Positions 302-28,144 of a stretch of 37,368 nucleotides of DNA are shown here, piece by piece. The notes under the pieces were generated by a model. The model worked only from the letters and a program-made list of their open reading frames with translations, was not told the origin of the DNA and did no database searches. A program made the position numbers and the translations under genes. The DNA lies in the IMG/VR virus record IMGVR_UViG_3300045131_001469, positions 1 through 37,368 of that record, one strand, 5' to 3'. This DNA comes from a virus. Positions within the stretch are counted from its first letter, which is position 1. Every line of letters begins with the position of its first letter.

Positions 302-1726
302 CTACAGGGCGCCCCTCATGAAGTCGTCAATCATGGATTGGATTTGGATCCGATCCATCGAGGGGAAGGCGGCACTCAGTGTGATGACTGCATTCTCCCT
401 GGATTGGCTTTCCAGGATGATCTTTGAGATGTTCGCATTGGGTGAGTTGAAAGGCGTTGGGGATTGTGATGCGGCCTTTCTCTGGAGACTGTACCCAGTG
501 TTTTCTGCCATCTGGGTAATGCCTGCATCTGACAATTCCATTCCAGCCAAAGCGAAAGACTGAAGAAGATTTCCCATTGCTTTGATGTCCTCATTGGACT
601 GACTCCCCCATACCAGTTTCGGGATGCGGCCGGGGAGGTTATTGATCTGGCAGAACTGGGTGACCAGCTGGTGGATCAAGGTGTCGCTCAACATCATCGC
701 ATCGAACTTCCGGATGTCGTCACGTACCGCGCCCTGAAGGGAGGATACGCCGGATCCCAAACCGGTCGGCTGGGCTTCCGCTGAAAGGGTTTGTCCAATG
801 ATGAGTTTCGACTTCTCCCGCTGGCAGATTGAAAGGAACTTATCATAGGCATCACCCGAGTCTGTCGATGAAACTTTCTGGATCTCAATCGACGTGTCGC
901 GGGAGCAGACAATGCCACCCAGGCGAGTCGCCAGGGAGAAGGCGCGTTCGAGGAGATTCTTTCCTTCATCATCAGCGAATTTTCCAACCAGGAACGGTGA
1001 GCCATAGCGGTCCAAAAACCGAGCCCACCACTCTCTGGACATCGCGGAGAGCAGCCACCAGAAGAGAATGGATCGCATAGGACCGCCCCAGTTTTCTGGA
1101 GCGGTAAGAAGATTTCCTTTGTGGATGATGTACCGGGATGGGTCTGGATCGTGCTTCGTTGACAGGATATATCCACTGACTGGATCCACGTCAAAAATTT
1201 GGAGTTTCCCAGTTGTCCAATCGAGTAGGTGATAAGGGACCGGGATAAGATTGGCAATGGCATAGCCGCGTTGGACGGGAGCATAGACCTTTTCGACAAT
1301 GGAAATCGGGTACAGGGATGAATCCATCATGTGAGAGCAAGCCATGCGGAAGGCCTTGCACCCTGAGATTGCCTCATTAACGGCTTCAGCGGTCTGCACG
1401 TCGGCCGGGTTTTTCTTATCGAAGGGAAGCACGGAAATTGTGTCGCCTAAAACCGCCAGCTTTCGCTTCGTCCATTCGGATTGAATATGCGAGTCCACAA
1501 TGATGACATCACGGTAGAGCGCAAAAAGATCACGCGTCTGACCTGCCTCGGCCTCCGATACGATTGAGATGATGCGGCCGGCGTCCATATTGAGCGCCAT
1601 CTGACAGGGTTCCATAAGGGCGGAAACAGTGCTGACGGGATGTGTGGGAATGTTGTTTTCCTTACCGCCCTTTTGAGTTCCTCGCCGATCGCGCAGGGTT
1701 TTATACATGTCTTTGAACCAGCCCAT
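302..1726 (-). CDS. Portal protein, Mu gp29-like (DUF935 family)
   Basis: This 474-residue protein matches the Mu gp29/DUF935 portal family in length, neighbours and general sequence character. The portal forms the dodecameric ring at the head vertex through which the terminase pumps DNA. The start is set by a strong GAGGAGGT site just before an ATG beginning MGWFKDMYKTL, while a longer in-frame extension reaches back into the nuclease gene. Typical features are the central tract around WWARFLDRYGSPFLVGKF and the later stretch SAEAQPTGLGSGVSSLQGAV. It is the last gene of the minus-strand packaging operon, 10 bases after the terminase nuclease gene. In Mu the portal is followed directly by F; here F lies 16 kb away on the other strand. 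Confidence 0.88.
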   Translation of the reverse strand: MGWFKDMYKTLRDRRGTQKGGKENNIPTHPVSTVSALMEPCQMALNMDAGRIISIVSEAEAGQTRDLFALYRDVIIVDSHIQSEWTKRKLAVLGDTISVLPFDKKNPADVQTAEAVNEAISGCKAFRMACSHMMDSSLYPISIVEKVYAPVQRGYAIANLIPVPYHLLDWTTGKLQIFDVDPVSGYILSTKHDPDPSRYIIHKGNLLTAPENWGGPMRSILFWWLLSAMSREWWARFLDRYGSPFLVGKFADDEGKNLLERAFSLATRLGGIVCSRDTSIEIQKVSSTDSGDAYDKFLSICQREKSKLIIGQTLSAEAQPTGLGSGVSSLQGAVRDDIRKFDAMMLSDTLIHQLVTQFCQINNLPGRIPKLVWGSQSNEDIKAMGNLLQSFALAGMELSDAGITQMAENTGYSLQRKAASQSPTPFNSPNANISKIILESQSRENAVITLSAAFPSMDRIQIQSMIDDFMRGAL

Positions 1727-1736
1727 AACAACCTCC

Positions 1737-2450
1737 TCAGGGCATTTGAAGCCCAATTCCCTTTTTTGAGTCCCGATTCGCGTCCGGACGTTTCCGGTTT
1801 TTCGCGGTGCCACTTGCGGTGGCGTATGTTCCCACCTGGGCGGCCGATGCCTGGACTGGTCCGCCCGGAATGATCAAGGCGTGAAGGCTCAACTTCACCG
1901 CATCGAAACAATCACCATGCCGACCTTCATCATCCACCTCAGCCTCGAATGTCCCCCGATCCCTGACGACCGAGCGGAAATCCTTTTGAACCCAGTTTTC
2001 CTTTGGGAGTGCGAGATATCCATCCTCGATGGTATTGACCATCAGATTCCCCAGGTACTGCTTAAAAATCATTCGTTCGCCCATGTACTCCGTTGCCTCT
2101 GAGGCGACGATCAGGTCGACCGGGATCCTGCCGGCAAAGGCGCTCCGCAAATCCACCGCGAAATACTTTTCAGAGGTCGCGTCAATGCAGAGCCTGCGCG
2201 GCCGGAACCCATGCGGGATCCCCTCCAGAACAAGATTCAAGATTGCCCTGGCAATGGACGGCTCTTTTGACTTCCACGACACCAGAAGCCTGACAAAATA
2301 GGTCATCCCCACTTCCTGGGTAACAGCCAAAACCGATGGGTTGCTCTTCTGTTTTGTCGTCGTGCCCACGTCGAGGCCCAATCCAATTCGCGGATAGTCC
2401 GGAGAGATATAGGATGGCCAGCCAGCCGGGAGTGCCTTGGATACCTTCAT
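1737..2450 (-). CDS. Large terminase, nuclease domain (split gp28-like)
   Basis: This 237-residue protein corresponds to the C-terminal RNase H-fold nuclease of a phage large terminase, which cuts DNA at the start and end of packaging. Visible motifs are an acidic strand GLGLDVGTTT (Asp near residue 27), a second acidic motif LCIDATSEKYFA, and a C-terminal HGDCFDAVKL motif whose Asp residues would complete the metal site. No Walker A motif is present. Its ATG overlaps the stop of the upstream ATPase gene as ATGA, so the two halves are probably translationally coupled and assemble together. An open extension upstream of the ATG only shadows the ATPase gene in another frame. Together the halves (237 + 306 residues) equal a normal single Mu gp28 in length. 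Confidence 0.85.
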   Translation of the reverse strand: MKVSKALPAGWPSYISPDYPRIGLGLDVGTTTKQKSNPSVLAVTQEVGMTYFVRLLVSWKSKEPSIARAILNLVLEGIPHGFRPRRLCIDATSEKYFAVDLRSAFAGRIPVDLIVASEATEYMGERMIFKQYLGNLMVNTIEDGYLALPKENWVQKDFRSVVRDRGTFEAEVDDEGRHGDCFDAVKLSLHALIIPGGPVQASAAQVGTYATASGTAKNRKRPDANRDSKKGIGLQMP

Positions 2451-5367: not shown

Positions 5368-5538
5368 TTACCACCTCGGGGGATTGACGGGCACGCCATT
5401 GGTTTCCATCAGCGGCCCATGATAAGGATAATGTTCCGGTCCGCCCTTTGGCGCCGTGGCCAATAACGCACAGCCAACGGCACCCCAGAGGATGCAGCCC
5501 AGAAGCGAAGCGCTGATGACCTGATAAAGAGGTTTCAT
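5368..5538 (-). CDS. Small lipoprotein, possible spanin-like lysis protein
   Basis: A short 56-residue gene. The product starts MKPLYQVISASLLGC, continues through a hydrophobic stretch, and has a lipobox-like LWGAVGC ending at Cys23. After that comes a short, proline-rich tail (GGPEHYPYHGPLMETN, then VNPPRW). The size and Pro-rich mature part resemble outer-membrane spanin subunits (Rz1 type), and its place between a putative holin and a peptidase fits a lysis cassette, but no inner-membrane partner is identified. The last codons include GAGGTGG, which forms the ribosome-binding site of the downstream papain-like gene, whose ATG follows at once. Confidence 0.6.
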   Translation of the reverse strand: MKPLYQVISASLLGCILWGAVGCALLATAPKGGPEHYPYHGPLMETNGVPVNPPRW

Positions 5539-5547
5539 TGGACAGCC

Positions 5548-6126
5548 TTATTCCGCGCCCGTCGACGTGGTCGTGGTTCTGGTTGCCGGACTGGAGTCAC
5601 CGGTTGTCACGATATTCCCATTTCCGGTAATAGTGACACCGCCGCCCTTGTCGCTCCCGTCTTGTGATTTATTCAGCATGTAGGCTGCTCCCAGGGTCGT
5701 GATAATGTCGAGCCCTGTCGCTCCGGCCATCATTCCAGGCTGATCCTTCCAGGCCGAAAAATACCCCGTGTTTATGCCCAGCAAATCAACTCCAAGCGCG
5801 ACCCCTCCATTCCCAAGAGCCTGCGCCTGAATGACCTTTGCCTTGGTCTGGACAACACTGTCGTGGGATGACACCGCTAGAATCGAGGCGCACCCCGAGG
5901 ACAGCAGCAACGCCCCTCCCATAAGAAAAGCCATCAACATGCCGGTCACCGACGGCAGGGCAATCTTCCGCTTTTCAATCACGCTCCAGATCGCCGCAAC
6001 CAAAACCATGATCGCCCCCGACACTTGAGCCCAATCGCTTTCATTGGCCACACCTGACCCGCCCAACATACCGCCCATACCCGCCAACACCGCCCGCAAT
6101 ACACCCATAACCTGATTCTGTTTCAT
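5548..6126 (-). CDS. Putative holin-like membrane protein
   Basis: The 192-residue product starts MKQNQVMGVLRAVLAGMGG and contains a short predicted helix, then a transmembrane stretch (VSGAIMVLVAAIWSVIEKRK, near residues 35-54). The pattern, ending in the charged WSVIEKRK turn, is characteristic of small phage holin candidates that follow a GG-rich N-terminus. A second hydrophobic stretch ends in LLLSSGCASILAV, which looks like an internal lipobox around Cys79. The C-terminal half is Gly/Thr/Ser-rich and polar. It could be a holin fused to a second domain. A good AGAGGATC ribosome site precedes the ATG. The holin assignment rests on topology, N-terminal similarity and position. Confidence 0.5.
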   Translation of the reverse strand: MKQNQVMGVLRAVLAGMGGMLGGSGVANESDWAQVSGAIMVLVAAIWSVIEKRKIALPSVTGMLMAFLMGGALLLSSGCASILAVSSHDSVVQTKAKVIQAQALGNGGVALGVDLLGINTGYFSAWKDQPGMMAGATGLDIITTLGAAYMLNKSQDGSDKGGGVTITGNGNIVTTGDSSPATRTTTTSTGAE

Positions 6127-6143: not shown

Positions 6144-6425
6144 TTATTGGTTCAAACGCTCGTTTTCGATAATGCCCTTCGCCGTGATCTTGCTGTACCG
6201 GCTCGCTCCCAGCTCATCCAAGACATCATCCACCAGGCCAAGGCCCTTGAGGATCAGGAGCGACTGCTCGATATCCTCGGCATCAAATTCAAAATCAACC
6301 ATTCCCCGCCTGGTCATCAGGGAAACGATCTGCATCGGAACGAACGCCAGGCGAAATCGTTCCGCCAGAAACTTCAACAGGGCTTTCCGAAGCATTTCCC
6401 GATCGATTTGCTCTTTCACTCTCAC
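6144..6425 (-). CDS. Small winged-helix-like phage protein
   Basis: A 93-residue protein of unknown function. The start is taken as GTG because it overlaps the upstream stop as GTGA, the coupling pattern used throughout the element. A longer reading frame upstream only shadows the neighbour. The predicted layout is a helix (EQIDREMLRKALLKFLAERF), then SLMTRRGMVDFEFDAEDIEQSL, a helix LLILKGLGLVDDVLDELG and a final strand-like RYSKITAKGIIENE. This resembles a small winged helix whose tail reads like a regulatory wing. It may be equivalent to one of the small proteins that precede the terminase in Mu-like phages. Confidence 0.55.
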   Translation of the reverse strand: MRVKEQIDREMLRKALLKFLAERFRLAFVPMQIVSLMTRRGMVDFEFDAEDIEQSLLILKGLGLVDDVLDELGASRYSKITAKGIIENERLNQ

Positions 6426-6754
6426 GTTGCACCAGGCTTTCTGCCCCCGCACAAATAGGGGCACATGCTCAACATTGTTTCCAGGCGACCAATCACACGT
6501 TCCAGATCCTTGAAACACTTATCACCGGACCGAAGTTGCTGATTAATTTCAGAGCGCGTCTTTTCCAGTTCGAGCTTGAGATCATGAAGATCACTCTTCG
6601 TGGCGAAATCCTTCAGAATCTGCTCAGACAGTGGCGGTTCCCGACGATAGGCCTTCAGCATTGCGAATACTGACGCCCCGAGCGCGGCCAGTGATGCAAT
6701 ATTGGAAATGAGATTGTACTGAAAGATCGCGCTCTCTGTGGTTGTAGGATCCAT
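6422..6754 (-). CDS. Membrane-anchored coiled-coil protein
   Basis: First gene of the leftward packaging/lysis operon. From the ATG preceded by AAAAGGG, the product is 110 residues. It has a polar N-terminus (MDPTTTESAIFQYNL), one transmembrane helix (ISNIASLAALGASVFAMLKA) and a long amphipathic helix rich in Asp/Glu/Lys (TKSDLHDLKLELEKTRSEI and onward), and it ends with a CPYLCGG cysteine pair. This topology, membrane anchor plus periplasmic or cytoplasmic coiled coil, is like DUF2730-type proteins of Mu relatives and also like inner-membrane spanins. The function is not established. The upstream in-frame extension has no ribosome site. Confidence 0.6.
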   Translation of the reverse strand: MDPTTTESAIFQYNLISNIASLAALGASVFAMLKAYRREPPLSEQILKDFATKSDLHDLKLELEKTRSEINQQLRSGDKCFKDLERVIGRLETMLSMCPYLCGGRKPGAT

Positions 6755-6907
6755 GATTACCCTTTTCGATGTGGATTCATTTGTGCGCACCATAGCGGAA
6801 GCCATTGCACCCTTCTAATCGGCGTGGAAGAACTGAAACCAACCCCCTGTTTTCAAAACTTCCACGGGAACAAGACGGGCGCCAGGCAATGTGGGAATCT
6901 CACTCCC
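6755..6907. promoter_or_regulatory. Divergent control region, packaging block versus accessory genes
   Basis: This is the only stretch between the leftward packaging/lysis genes and the rightward accessory genes, so promoters for both should lie here or just inside the genes. I could not pick convincing -35/-10 hexamers. Late genes of Mu relatives use activator-dependent promoters, which often lack a -35 box. Confidence 0.35.
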
Positions 6908-7288
6908 ATGCCAACGATGAATTTCAAAAAGACTTTTGTGGAGCCCATCCTTGATGGAACAAAGGCCCATACAATTCGCTTTTCGAAGCGGCCCGTAAAA
7001 AAAGGGCAGCTGCTCTATTGTCAAACTGGATCCCGGTTCAAACCTTCCCGATTCGCAGTTCTCCCGGCCATGCGCGTGCGGGTAGTGACCCTCTCGCGAG
7101 AAACAGTTTCAGTCTGGAATGAGGATGGCCGGGGGTTCACCGTTCCGCCACTGGATAAATTTGCCCGCGCTGACGGCTTCCAGAACTGGGGAGCTCTCCG
7201 TGCATGGTTCGATTCTCTCTACGGTTCTGATCGCGACGTCATGGAGGGACAATTGGTTCAGTGGGCAATCGCTGAATGGGAGAAGTGA
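6908..7288 (+). CDS. ASCH/PUA-like domain protein
   Basis: The product opens MNFKKTFVEPILDGTKAHT, followed by IRFSKR, KKGQLLYCQTGSR and a later RVRVVTLSRE strand. This is the pattern of ASCH domains (PUA-fold, predicted RNA- or modified-nucleotide-binding). The KKGQ turn and the basic first helix are typical. The C-terminal half ends with a Trp-rich helix (LDKFARADGFQNWGALRAWF). Start choice is uncertain: ATG at 6908 or 6917 both directly precede the domain, and an upstream ATG at 6824 gives 28 extra residues that look non-conserved. In phages such proteins are accessory cargo, possibly influencing translation or countering host defences; that role is inference. Confidence 0.68.
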   Translation: MPTMNFKKTFVEPILDGTKAHTIRFSKRPVKKGQLLYCQTGSRFKPSRFAVLPAMRVRVVTLSRETVSVWNEDGRGFTVPPLDKFARADGFQNWGALRAWFDSLYGSDRDVMEGQLVQWAIAEWEK

Positions 7289-15563: not shown

Positions 15564-16361
15564 ATGACAAGCAAACGAATGAAGGCTGAGATGAATGTGA
15601 TTGAAACGCGGGAAGAGTTGGAGGCGACGGTGGGGCGGATCTCTGCGAAGACGAGCGCACGCGACGGCCTGCTCGCTGATCTCGAATCGGAGATCAATGA
15701 GGCGCGGTCACGCTACGAGCCGCAGATTACGGCCTATGGTGAGGAGATCAATTCGGACTTCGAGGCAACCCAGCGCTGGGCTGAGGCGAATCCTTCAACC
15801 TTCTCAACCAGGAAGAGCCTTGACCTGATGCACGGCACCATCGGGTTCCGCACCGGCCAGCCCCGGCTGAAACTCCTCTCCGGTTGGACGTGGAACCGGG
15901 TGCTTGAGCTGATGGCGGTCAATCGCCTGACGGATTACATCCGCCAGAAACAGGAGCCCGATAAGGAGCGGATCCTGGCGGAGCGGGATCAGTTGACGGA
16001 TGAACTGATGAAACGGATCGGCGTCAAGGTTGTCCAGGATGAAACCTTTTACATCGAGCCCAAGCGTGAGGAGGCCGGCATATCTGTGGGCAAGGTGGCT
16101 GGGTTCCTGCTTCTCCTGGCGCTCCCCTTCCTCGGTGGCTGCTACACCCCGAGCGAAGAGGAGAAGGCGTCATTCTGGCTTAAGCAGATCGCCGTTGAGG
16201 AGAAGCAGCAGACGGCCTACCTGGAGCAGATTGCGGTTTCTGTGAAAGACGTGCCCTATCACCTGAAACGGATTTCCGAAAAGGTTCAGCCCAGAACCAT
16301 AGATGAAATCGTTGAGGAGGCGAATCGACTTGTTCGCGAATCAAAGGAGAAGAACCAATGA
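15564..16361 (+). CDS. Gam-like DNA-end protein with lipoprotein-like C-terminal extension
   Basis: Residues 1 to about 170 match the host-nuclease inhibitor Gam family in layout: a long helix (VIETREELEATVGRISAK, then LLADLESEINEARSRYE), the strand DLMHGTIGFRTGQPRLKL, a second long helix and the closing FYIEPK. Gam dimers coat linear dsDNA ends and block host exonucleases such as RecBCD; Mu Gam is about 174 residues long. Here the frame continues with a hydrophobic segment (VAGFLLLLALPFL), a lipobox-like LGGC at Cys193, and about 70 charged residues. A Gam fused to a membrane or lipoprotein tail is unexpected. A nested gene starting at 16086 is an alternative reading of the same DNA. Good AGGAG site. 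Confidence 0.8.
   Translation: MTSKRMKAEMNVIETREELEATVGRISAKTSARDGLLADLESEINEARSRYEPQITAYGEEINSDFEATQRWAEANPSTFSTRKSLDLMHGTIGFRTGQPRLKLLSGWTWNRVLELMAVNRLTDYIRQKQEPDKERILAERDQLTDELMKRIGVKVVQDETFYIEPKREEAGISVGKVAGFLLLLALPFLGGCYTPSEEEKASFWLKQIAVEEKQQTAYLEQIAVSVKDVPYHLKRISEKVQPRTIDEIVEEANRLVRESKEKNQ
16086..16361 (+). CDS. Possible nested lipoprotein inside the Gam gene
   Basis: An in-frame GTG is preceded by GAGGAGG eleven bases upstream. Initiation here would give a 91-residue protein starting VGKVAGFLLLLALPFLGGC: a short charged N-region, a hydrophobic core and a perfect lipobox, i.e. a textbook type II signal peptide. The mature part (SEEEKASFWLKQIAVEEKQQ onward) is helical and charged. This would resolve the odd fusion as two products from one frame. 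Not proven: the spacing to GTG is longer than ideal. Confidence 0.45.
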   Translation: MGKVAGFLLLLALPFLGGCYTPSEEEKASFWLKQIAVEEKQQTAYLEQIAVSVKDVPYHLKRISEKVQPRTIDEIVEEANRLVRESKEKNQ

Positions 16362-16561
16362 ACGCGATCACGATGTCACGGATAACGGCAATGAGTCCCA
16401 ATCGTCTCCCACTGGTTGGCCGCTATGACGCGGGCGATCTCCAGCGGGCCATGCGTGTCGCCCTGGGCCGGGCGCATCTGCGGATGCTGCGCGGGGATAC
16501 CGCGAAGCGTTCGCCTATTGGTTGCGACATGCGGGCGGATGGCCGCCGGGTGGAACTGTAG
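16358..16561 (+). CDS. Small basic hypothetical protein
   Basis: A 67-residue Arg-rich product (DLQRAMRVALGRAHLRMLRG) that overlaps the Gam gene's stop as ATGA. No family recognised. Basic character suggests nucleic-acid binding, but the composition is also compatible with a poorly conserved spacer gene. Confidence 0.4.
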   Translation: MNAITMSRITAMSPNRLPLVGRYDAGDLQRAMRVALGRAHLRMLRGDTAKRSPIGCDMRADGRRVEL

Positions 16562-21104: not shown

Positions 21105-21953
21105 GTGAAGAAGACAATGATGGTGGCGGTGATGGGAATGGTTCTGTGTGGAGTGGCGTATGGTGCGGCATTGACGGCTGAAAGGGATACGTATCAGCGG
21201 CCGAACCAGTACACGTCGCTGACGGTGGCGAGTAACTCGATTATCTATGCCGGTGCGTTGGTGTGCGTGAACTCCAGCGGCCTGGCGGTTCCGGCTGCGG
21301 ATAGCGCTGGCTTTGCGGTGGTTGGCCGCGCCGAAGCGACGGTGGATAACCGGGGCGTGCTCTATGTGGCGACCAAGACGATCAAGGTTGCCAGGGGAAC
21401 GTTCCGCTGGGCCAACGGCGATGTGATCGCGGTGGCTGATATCGGCAAGATCGTCTATGTCACCGATGACCAGACGGTTTCTAAGACGGGCGGCGGCCAG
21501 AACATCATCGCCGGATCCGTGGTGGATGTGGATGCCGGCGGCGTCTGGGTCGATACCGCCAAAGTGGGGCCCATTGGGGCTGCTACTCCGTCGAGCCTGG
21601 CTGTGTCCGGAGCGGCCACAGTTGGCACGACACTCGGGGTGACGGGCGTCGCAACCCTCACAGGCAATGCAGTCGCCAATGAGGTCGATGCGCGGACGGC
21701 TACGGCGTTGCTCCTGGGCAAGGCTACGGCCACAAGCGTGACCATCGGAGCTTCTGATGCCGATGTGAGCGTTCCGGGCGCTCTCGGTGTGACGGGCGCC
21801 ATTGTTGGATCCAGCACGGTTGCGGCGACCGGATACAAGATCGGAACGATTGCTGGATGGAGCGGCATTGTGACGAATCTCGCTCCGGGAGGAACTAACT
21901 TCGAATACCGGGCCGGTGGCATAACGACCAACGTTGTGTTCGCTGCTGAGTAA
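21105..21953 (+). CDS. Head decoration-like protein with Sec signal peptide
   Basis: The 282-residue product starts at GTG (GAGGAG site upstream) with a typical signal peptide: MKKTMMVAVMGMVLCGVAYG, followed by AALTAERD. Residues 25-150 resemble capsid decoration/cement proteins (DUF2190 style) in RDTYQRPNQYTSLTVASN, IYAGALVCVNSSGLAVPA and the VADIGKIVYVTDDQTVSKT region. From about 160 on, short repeats such as ATVGTTLGVTGVATLTGNAV look like fibre sequence. It occupies the place of a head decoration gene between I/Z and the major capsid T. A Sec signal on a capsid component is unexpected. Confidence 0.6.
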   Translation: MKKTMMVAVMGMVLCGVAYGAALTAERDTYQRPNQYTSLTVASNSIIYAGALVCVNSSGLAVPAADSAGFAVVGRAEATVDNRGVLYVATKTIKVARGTFRWANGDVIAVADIGKIVYVTDDQTVSKTGGGQNIIAGSVVDVDAGGVWVDTAKVGPIGAATPSSLAVSGAATVGTTLGVTGVATLTGNAVANEVDARTATALLLGKATATSVTIGASDADVSVPGALGVTGAIVGSSTVAATGYKIGTIAGWSGIVTNLAPGGTNFEYRAGGITTNVVFAAE

Positions 21954-27844: not shown

Positions 27845-28144
27845 TCAATGCCGGCGGGAACCAAAGGCGGCGCCACGGGTGGCACTGGATTCAACTCGGT
27901 ATCCGGTAGACGTGCGGATGATTTGCTGATTGGCAACGCCGGGGCCGCCCTCGACATAATAGCCGGTCGGGGTCTTATAGGCGGTTCGGGTACCGGCCGG
28001 GGTTGTGACTGAGTAGCCCGTGCGGGTTGTCCGGATCTCCCTGGCGGCCGTGGCGGCCTGGATGGCGACGATATCATTGGTGGAGTTACCCGCGAAGAGC
28101 GGGATGGCGATGACTGAGAGAAGAATGACGATCACCGTTTTCAT
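27845..28144 (-). CDS. Exported small protein with TGY repeats (moron candidate)
   Basis: The only minus-strand gene inside the late tail operon. The 99-residue product starts with a signal peptide (MKTVIVILLSVIAIPLFAG), followed by a short helix and three related repeats around TGYSVTTPAG, TGYYVEGGPG and TGYRVESSAT. It should be secreted to the periplasm or outer surface. Opposite orientation and no coupling mark it as a possible moron, expressed independently and perhaps in the lysogen. No strong ribosome site is visible upstream of the ATG. No family recognised. Confidence 0.6.
   Translation of the reverse strand: MKTVIVILLSVIAIPLFAGNSTNDIVAIQAATAAREIRTTRTGYSVTTPAGTRTAYKTPTGYYVEGGPGVANQQIIRTSTGYRVESSATRGAAFGSRRH

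Follow-up and report, generated by a model that had tools for sequence, protein, structure and literature searches.

In-frame joining of a Mu-like Gam domain to a predicted C-terminal lipobox in two related phages

A Gam protein with an in-frame C-terminal lipobox is a new variant within the known Gam family, and judged from the sequences of two related Mu-like phages the Gam-lipobox fusion is a conserved arrangement. In the window, by which we mean the whole stretch of viral DNA that was analysed (37,368 nucleotides, IMG/VR record IMGVR_UViG_3300045131_001469), the gam frame continues without interruption through a linker into a lipoprotein-type signal. As no stop separates the parts, translation from the gam start always yields the fused protein. 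These features make attachment of the fused Gam to the cell membrane probable. To the complete reading, in which every Gam molecule carries a C-terminal lipoprotein-type signal and is membrane-tethered via a lipidated Cys193, we give a probability of about 0.5.

Layout of the fused reading frame

The features of the fused frame are listed below, with reference to its fused relative L140 (IMGVR_UViG_3300037485_001599), which lies in record G015 (38,249 b).

15564..16361, + strand: fused ORF made of Gam domain, linker, lipobox and short tail; 265 aa, no internal stops
15612..16061, + strand: Phage_Mu_Gam domain, residues 17-166; PF07352 E 8e-26, PHROG 491 E 2e-34
16062..16094, + strand: Gam tail and linker KREEAGISVGK; unfused Gams all end here; linker length equal in L140
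16068..16074, + strand: GAGGAGG, Shine-Dalgarno (SD)-like, inside Gam tail codons; duplex energy -12.0 kcal/mol, same place in L140 -6.5
16086..16088, + strand: GTG, candidate internal start from which a free prolipoprotein of 91 aa would be made; lipoprotein rule passed, C at 19, K at 3
16095..16142, + strand: hydrophobic segment and lipobox, VAGFLLLLALPFLGG then C; C193 at 16140-16142; under selection in comparison with L140
16143..16358, + strand: post-cysteine residues; YTP conserved, remainder variable; mostly helical in structure prediction
16358..16561, + strand: next gene; start overlaps the fusion stop (ATGA); 59.6% over 52 aa in G015

In Pfam and PHROG profile searches the PF07352 match covered profile positions 2-149 of 149 and the PHROG 491 match residues 4-173, and with 91.1 bits against a curated cut-off of 28.3 the fused ORF lies above the family threshold. 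A profile built from relatives also matched the solved Gam 2p2u (E 3.8e-19). Genes for MuA-like (PHROG 310) and MuB-like (PF09077) proteins precede the fused gam, giving the MuA-MuB-Gam-GemA-like order of phage Mu, and Mu-like portal, gpT and protease genes are encoded elsewhere in the window. When the MuA or MuB of the window was used as query against viral contigs, no matches were obtained. By sequence and context the window protein is placed in the Gam (host-nuclease inhibitor) family, with which it shares the whole Gam domain, and by homology it would bind and protect double-strand DNA ends. The sampled PF07352 members end 7-24 codons past the motif QDETFY, whereas the window Gam adds 102 codons, comprising lipobox and tail; since a short C-terminus is a usual but not a defining feature of Gam, the protein stays a member, as a variant.

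Past the Gam domain the ORF stays open through VGKVAGFLLLLALPFLGGC / KREEAGISVGKVAGFLLLLALPFLGGCYTP, carries the lipoprotein signal GKVAGFLLLLALPFLGG directly before C193 and proceeds to residue 265, where the stop TGA lies within the ATGA overlap, a junction by which other window genes are joined likewise. The sequence-only reading had proposed a Gam domain complete by about residue 170, followed in the same frame by a lipobox and tail, and had remarked on an internal GTG at 16086 with GAGGAGG upstream; the PF07352 match ends at about 166, the coordinates and lipobox proved correct, and both the GTG and the GAGGAGG are present. A fold search of the fused-protein model in the PDB returned no match at E <= 0.001, a result that is uninformative because the pTM of the model is only 0.42.

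The fused relative and the wider Gam family

An initial survey placed the stop 8-17 codons past QDETFY in every counted homologue except the window, and loci missed by the motif likewise ended shortly after it. The survey was then extended by the nearest clade to 113 distinct closed Gams besides the window, 112 of which stop 7-24 codons past the C-terminal QDETFY; L140 runs for 77 codons and the window for 102, and six further Gams, missed by the motif search, have normal ends. Early Gam searches had yielded unfused relatives only, and L140 surfaced with the nearest-clade alignment (A2) as query. Beyond these two genomes, the only ones from which the fusion is known, it was absent from all >110 other Gam proteins surveyed, and a viral scan using both fused proteins yielded no third fused member. 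Thus the extension raised in the sequence-only reading recurs, without a stop, in L140 but is absent in the 112 others. A phylogeny of 116 Gam cores grouped the fused pair as a single clade (100/100), set on a long branch among Gams that are otherwise all unfused, which fits a single origin. In the lists of open-licence papers retrieved, no lipobox-bearing Gam came to light.

In L140, Gam is joined without a stop to QDETFFIDPKREEVGETIGKVAGLLIMLALPFLGGCYTPTVEERMAYWAKQ, and its fusion too overlaps by ATGA with the next gene, which is the one found there in the window. The two records are syntenic nearly end to end, with protein identities of 36-89%. The Gam cores share 70% protein identity, and their synonymous sites are near saturation (pS 0.72, dS about 2.5). 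K177, the whole of LALPFLGGCYTP and the linker length are nevertheless unchanged, LALPFLGGCYTP being identical as protein although its codons have changed synonymously, and the lipobox cysteine and LGGC are kept. Over linker and lipobox, pN/pS was 0.26 in the gam frame, whereas the two remaining forward frames gave 1.46 and 6.1; for residues 176-197 it was 0.18. Residues 197-224, in contrast, gave 0.92, with changes spread evenly across codon positions. This comparison points to purifying selection on linker and lipobox in the gam frame only and not on the tail after CYTP, which by the same measure drifts or evolves fast; the low gam-frame pN/pS over so long a divergence argues that selection has maintained the continuity of Gam, linker and lipobox. 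The end of the fusion in L140 (3688-3718) is encoded by a short repeat of the GTCAGGAGTCAGAA type, a possible reason why tail length varies.

These data bear directly on the possibility that the gam stop was lost through a sequencing or assembly error, or recently, leaving an extension without a role. Such an accident would agree with the presence of the extension in two of about 115 sampled Gams only and with the unconstrained tail beyond CYTP. However, an independent record shows the same fusion at 31% nucleotide difference in gam; when the sequence is read directly, no one-step change, whether substitution or indel, would bring back a stop at the place usual for the family and leave the conserved EPKREE tail intact; and linker and lipobox are under in-frame selection in an extension that has its own ATGA junction. 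Because L140 is fused at near-saturated synonymous divergence, assembly error and recent read-through are rejected, and we regard an accidental origin of any kind as highly improbable. A stop between the two parts in related genomes had been named beforehand as the sign of a recent read-through or assembly error; L140, the only relative with the lipoprotein part, has no such stop, and the unfused Gams lack the lipoprotein part, so their stops give no sign of recent read-through.

One product or two from the frame

The GTG at 16086 is codon 175 of gam, in the same frame, and lies 11 nt from the last G of GAGGAGG, which has the strongest duplex energy of the neighbourhood. For comparison, 582 internal in-frame ATG, GTG and TTG codons from 44 window genes were scored, and the SD of this GTG ranked second, the top one probably being the true start of the portal gene (window 305-1813, - strand), which probably begins at codon 30 (ATG, SD -12.6) and not at the listed GTG. 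Only four of the 582 internal starts, GTG 16086 among them, conform to a PROSITE-style lipoprotein rule (lipobox, cysteine at 15-35, K/R within the first 7 residues), the other three having SDs of -7.4 or weaker. The full-length ORF failed this rule, and of two GTGs tested only GTG 16086 passed it. The coincidence of SD and signal at this codon exceeds chance.

We weighed, as a tentative alternative, that the frame yields two products, the full-length fusion from ATG 15564 and a functional 91-aa prolipoprotein from GTG 16086, with the fusion a tolerated by-product. Besides the second-strongest SD of 582 and its being the sole start that gives a rule-conforming lipoprotein, GTG 16086 sits exactly where unfused Gams terminate. 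In L140, however, ATC stands at this position behind a weaker SD (-6.5), and a good alternative start is lacking, as the signal peptide from the following GTG would have no K/R in its n-region; moreover, the conserved Glu-Glu pair in the Gam tail already accounts for the GAGGAG. A separately encoded copy of the window lipoprotein, the existence of which in related phages had been suggested, was looked for and not found, and when the lipoprotein part alone served as query, neither phage records nor viral contigs yielded a relative, and no Pfam or PHROG match was convincing. Two proteins from one frame are thus possible in the window but not conserved: the comparison suggests that the internal start is a lineage-specific possibility and that the conserved feature is the fusion. 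Accordingly, the separate lipoprotein proposed in the sequence-only reading retains its strong SD and signal in the window and loses both strength of SD and start codon in L140, and of its two proposals, a membrane-tethered Gam or two proteins, the fused product is well supported and the internal start is not conserved.

In-frame nested genes are known from phages, e.g. Mu I/Z and lambda C/Nu3. If GTG 16086 is used, the window would share with these the layout of two products from one frame, with the difference that its internal start is not conserved in its only relative. Spanins and other small phage lipoproteins (Rz1, u-spanins, Ltp-type) are likewise short and phage-encoded, and Rz1 is nested inside another gene. 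However, Rz1 is out of frame and belongs to a lysis cassette, whereas the window lipoprotein part is in frame, C-terminal to Gam and in the early transposition operon. A spanin would be expected in the lysis cassette beside an i-spanin partner, or else to combine an N-terminal lipobox with a C-terminal TMD. The fused ORF lies between the MuB- and GemA-like genes, with the holin gene (PF23987) at 5.5-6.1 kb on the other strand, and its sequence has no strongly hydrophobic segment after the lipobox of the kind found as the spanin C-terminal TMD; by location and layout, a phage spanin was rejected. An out-of-frame nested gene (Rz1-like) was also rejected, as the other forward frames have pN/pS > 1.4 over linker and lipobox. 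Some other Mu-like loci have unrelated, separate small lipoprotein genes at up to about 2 kb downstream of gam (L081 from 4609, L008 from 5967, L001 from 6908, L095 from 6521).

Possible tethering, processing and significance

The topology, lipidation, cleavage, function and purpose of tethering that we infer would be as follows. The Gam domain would fold in the cytoplasm, and hydrophobic segment 178-192, emerging next, would be inserted N-in/C-out by the Sec/SRP route. Cys193 would arrive at the periplasmic face and be lipidated by Lgt, and Gam would be held at the inner membrane and could there bind linear DNA ends and protect them. LspA may cut before Cys193, in which case Gam would be kept by the short signal segment and a small lipoprotein freed (73 aa in the window, 48 aa in L140). 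In the window only, GTG 16086 as a second start may supply extra free lipoprotein. The tether may serve to guard ends at the membrane, or the lipoprotein part may exclude superinfecting phages, as Ltp-type phage lipoproteins do (PMC3952083). A fusion partner need not inactivate Gam, since Mu gam-gfp still blocks RecBCD (PMC3809393). In a similar way of working, CadC and ToxR combine a cytoplasmic DNA-binding N-domain, a single membrane helix and a C-terminal periplasmic part in one chain (PMC6320335); they are, however, unrelated in sequence, bind promoters and use an ordinary transmembrane helix, as compared with the predicted end binding and a lipobox in the window Gam.

The weak points of tethering are the predicted hydrophobic stretch, which is short and proline-containing, with an unfavourable rough insertion score (+3.1 and +3.3), and a lipobox lying far from the N-terminus, a position that is not known for LspA substrates. 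A segment short for a permanent anchor would suit a polyprotein, in which the inserted fusion is cut fully by LspA into a hydrophobic-tailed Gam and a separate lipoprotein and tethering is brief or incidental. The conserved lipobox cysteine and LGGC are consistent with this too, as is the rapid evolution of the mature tail, such as a separate envelope protein could show. Keeping in mind that an internal lipobox would be an unusual LspA substrate and that cleavage is itself deduced, we consider complete processing improbable and prefer the lipid-tethered fusion.

The window contains a second ORF in which a domain is followed by a lipobox (5548-6126, - strand). It encodes a complete Phage_holin_10 domain (PF23987, 52/52; Pam3 gp28 family), an in-frame hydrophobic segment ALLLSSGC and then a tail of roughly 115 residues, and G015 (6343-6939, - strand) has the same layout with GLMMTTGC and a conserved tail. 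That two such ORFs are kept in both phages makes accident less likely and, at the level of sequence, suggests that internal lipoboxes are usable in the host of these phages. A bolder, doubtful extension would be that this lineage builds composites of a phage domain (Gam; holin) and an internal lipobox, lipidated and cut mid-chain with host Lgt/LspA as the polyprotein processor, to give a membrane-held end protector and a periplasmic lipoprotein. From composition and repeats, a host of the Verrucomicrobiota/Planctomycetota kind is suspected.

Gam is a DNA-end cap that blocks host exonucleases, and Gam-GFP fusions serve to visualise DNA breaks in live cells. A natural membrane-tied Gam, if true, would suggest that protection of linear DNA takes place at the membrane in some phages, with the DNA entry point and the arrival of superinfecting DNA as candidate sites, and would constitute a natural membrane-anchored end-binding reagent. 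Processing at a mid-protein lipobox, if true, would require the N-terminal rule for lipoprotein signals to be widened and would define a class missed by gene callers and lipoprotein predictors.

Adjoining the holin gene, a small proline-rich lipoprotein-like ORF (window 5371-5538, - strand; MKPLYQVISASLLGCILWGAVGC...) is o-spanin-like and has no G015 match. By a simple rule, export-like hydrophobic N-termini occur in 9/46 window proteins, likely head and tail proteins among them (window 5371-5538, 21105, 27845-28144, 28701, 31201, 32595, 35466, 35738). The predicted head protein (PHROG 1731; window 21105-21953, + strand) begins with the signal-peptide-like VKKTMMVAVMGMVLCGVAYGA, and its counterpart in G015, from about 22594, has a signal-peptide-like N-terminus too; the related records L102-L104 match only from residue 22 onward. 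The lipoprotein start at window 35738 is conserved in G015.
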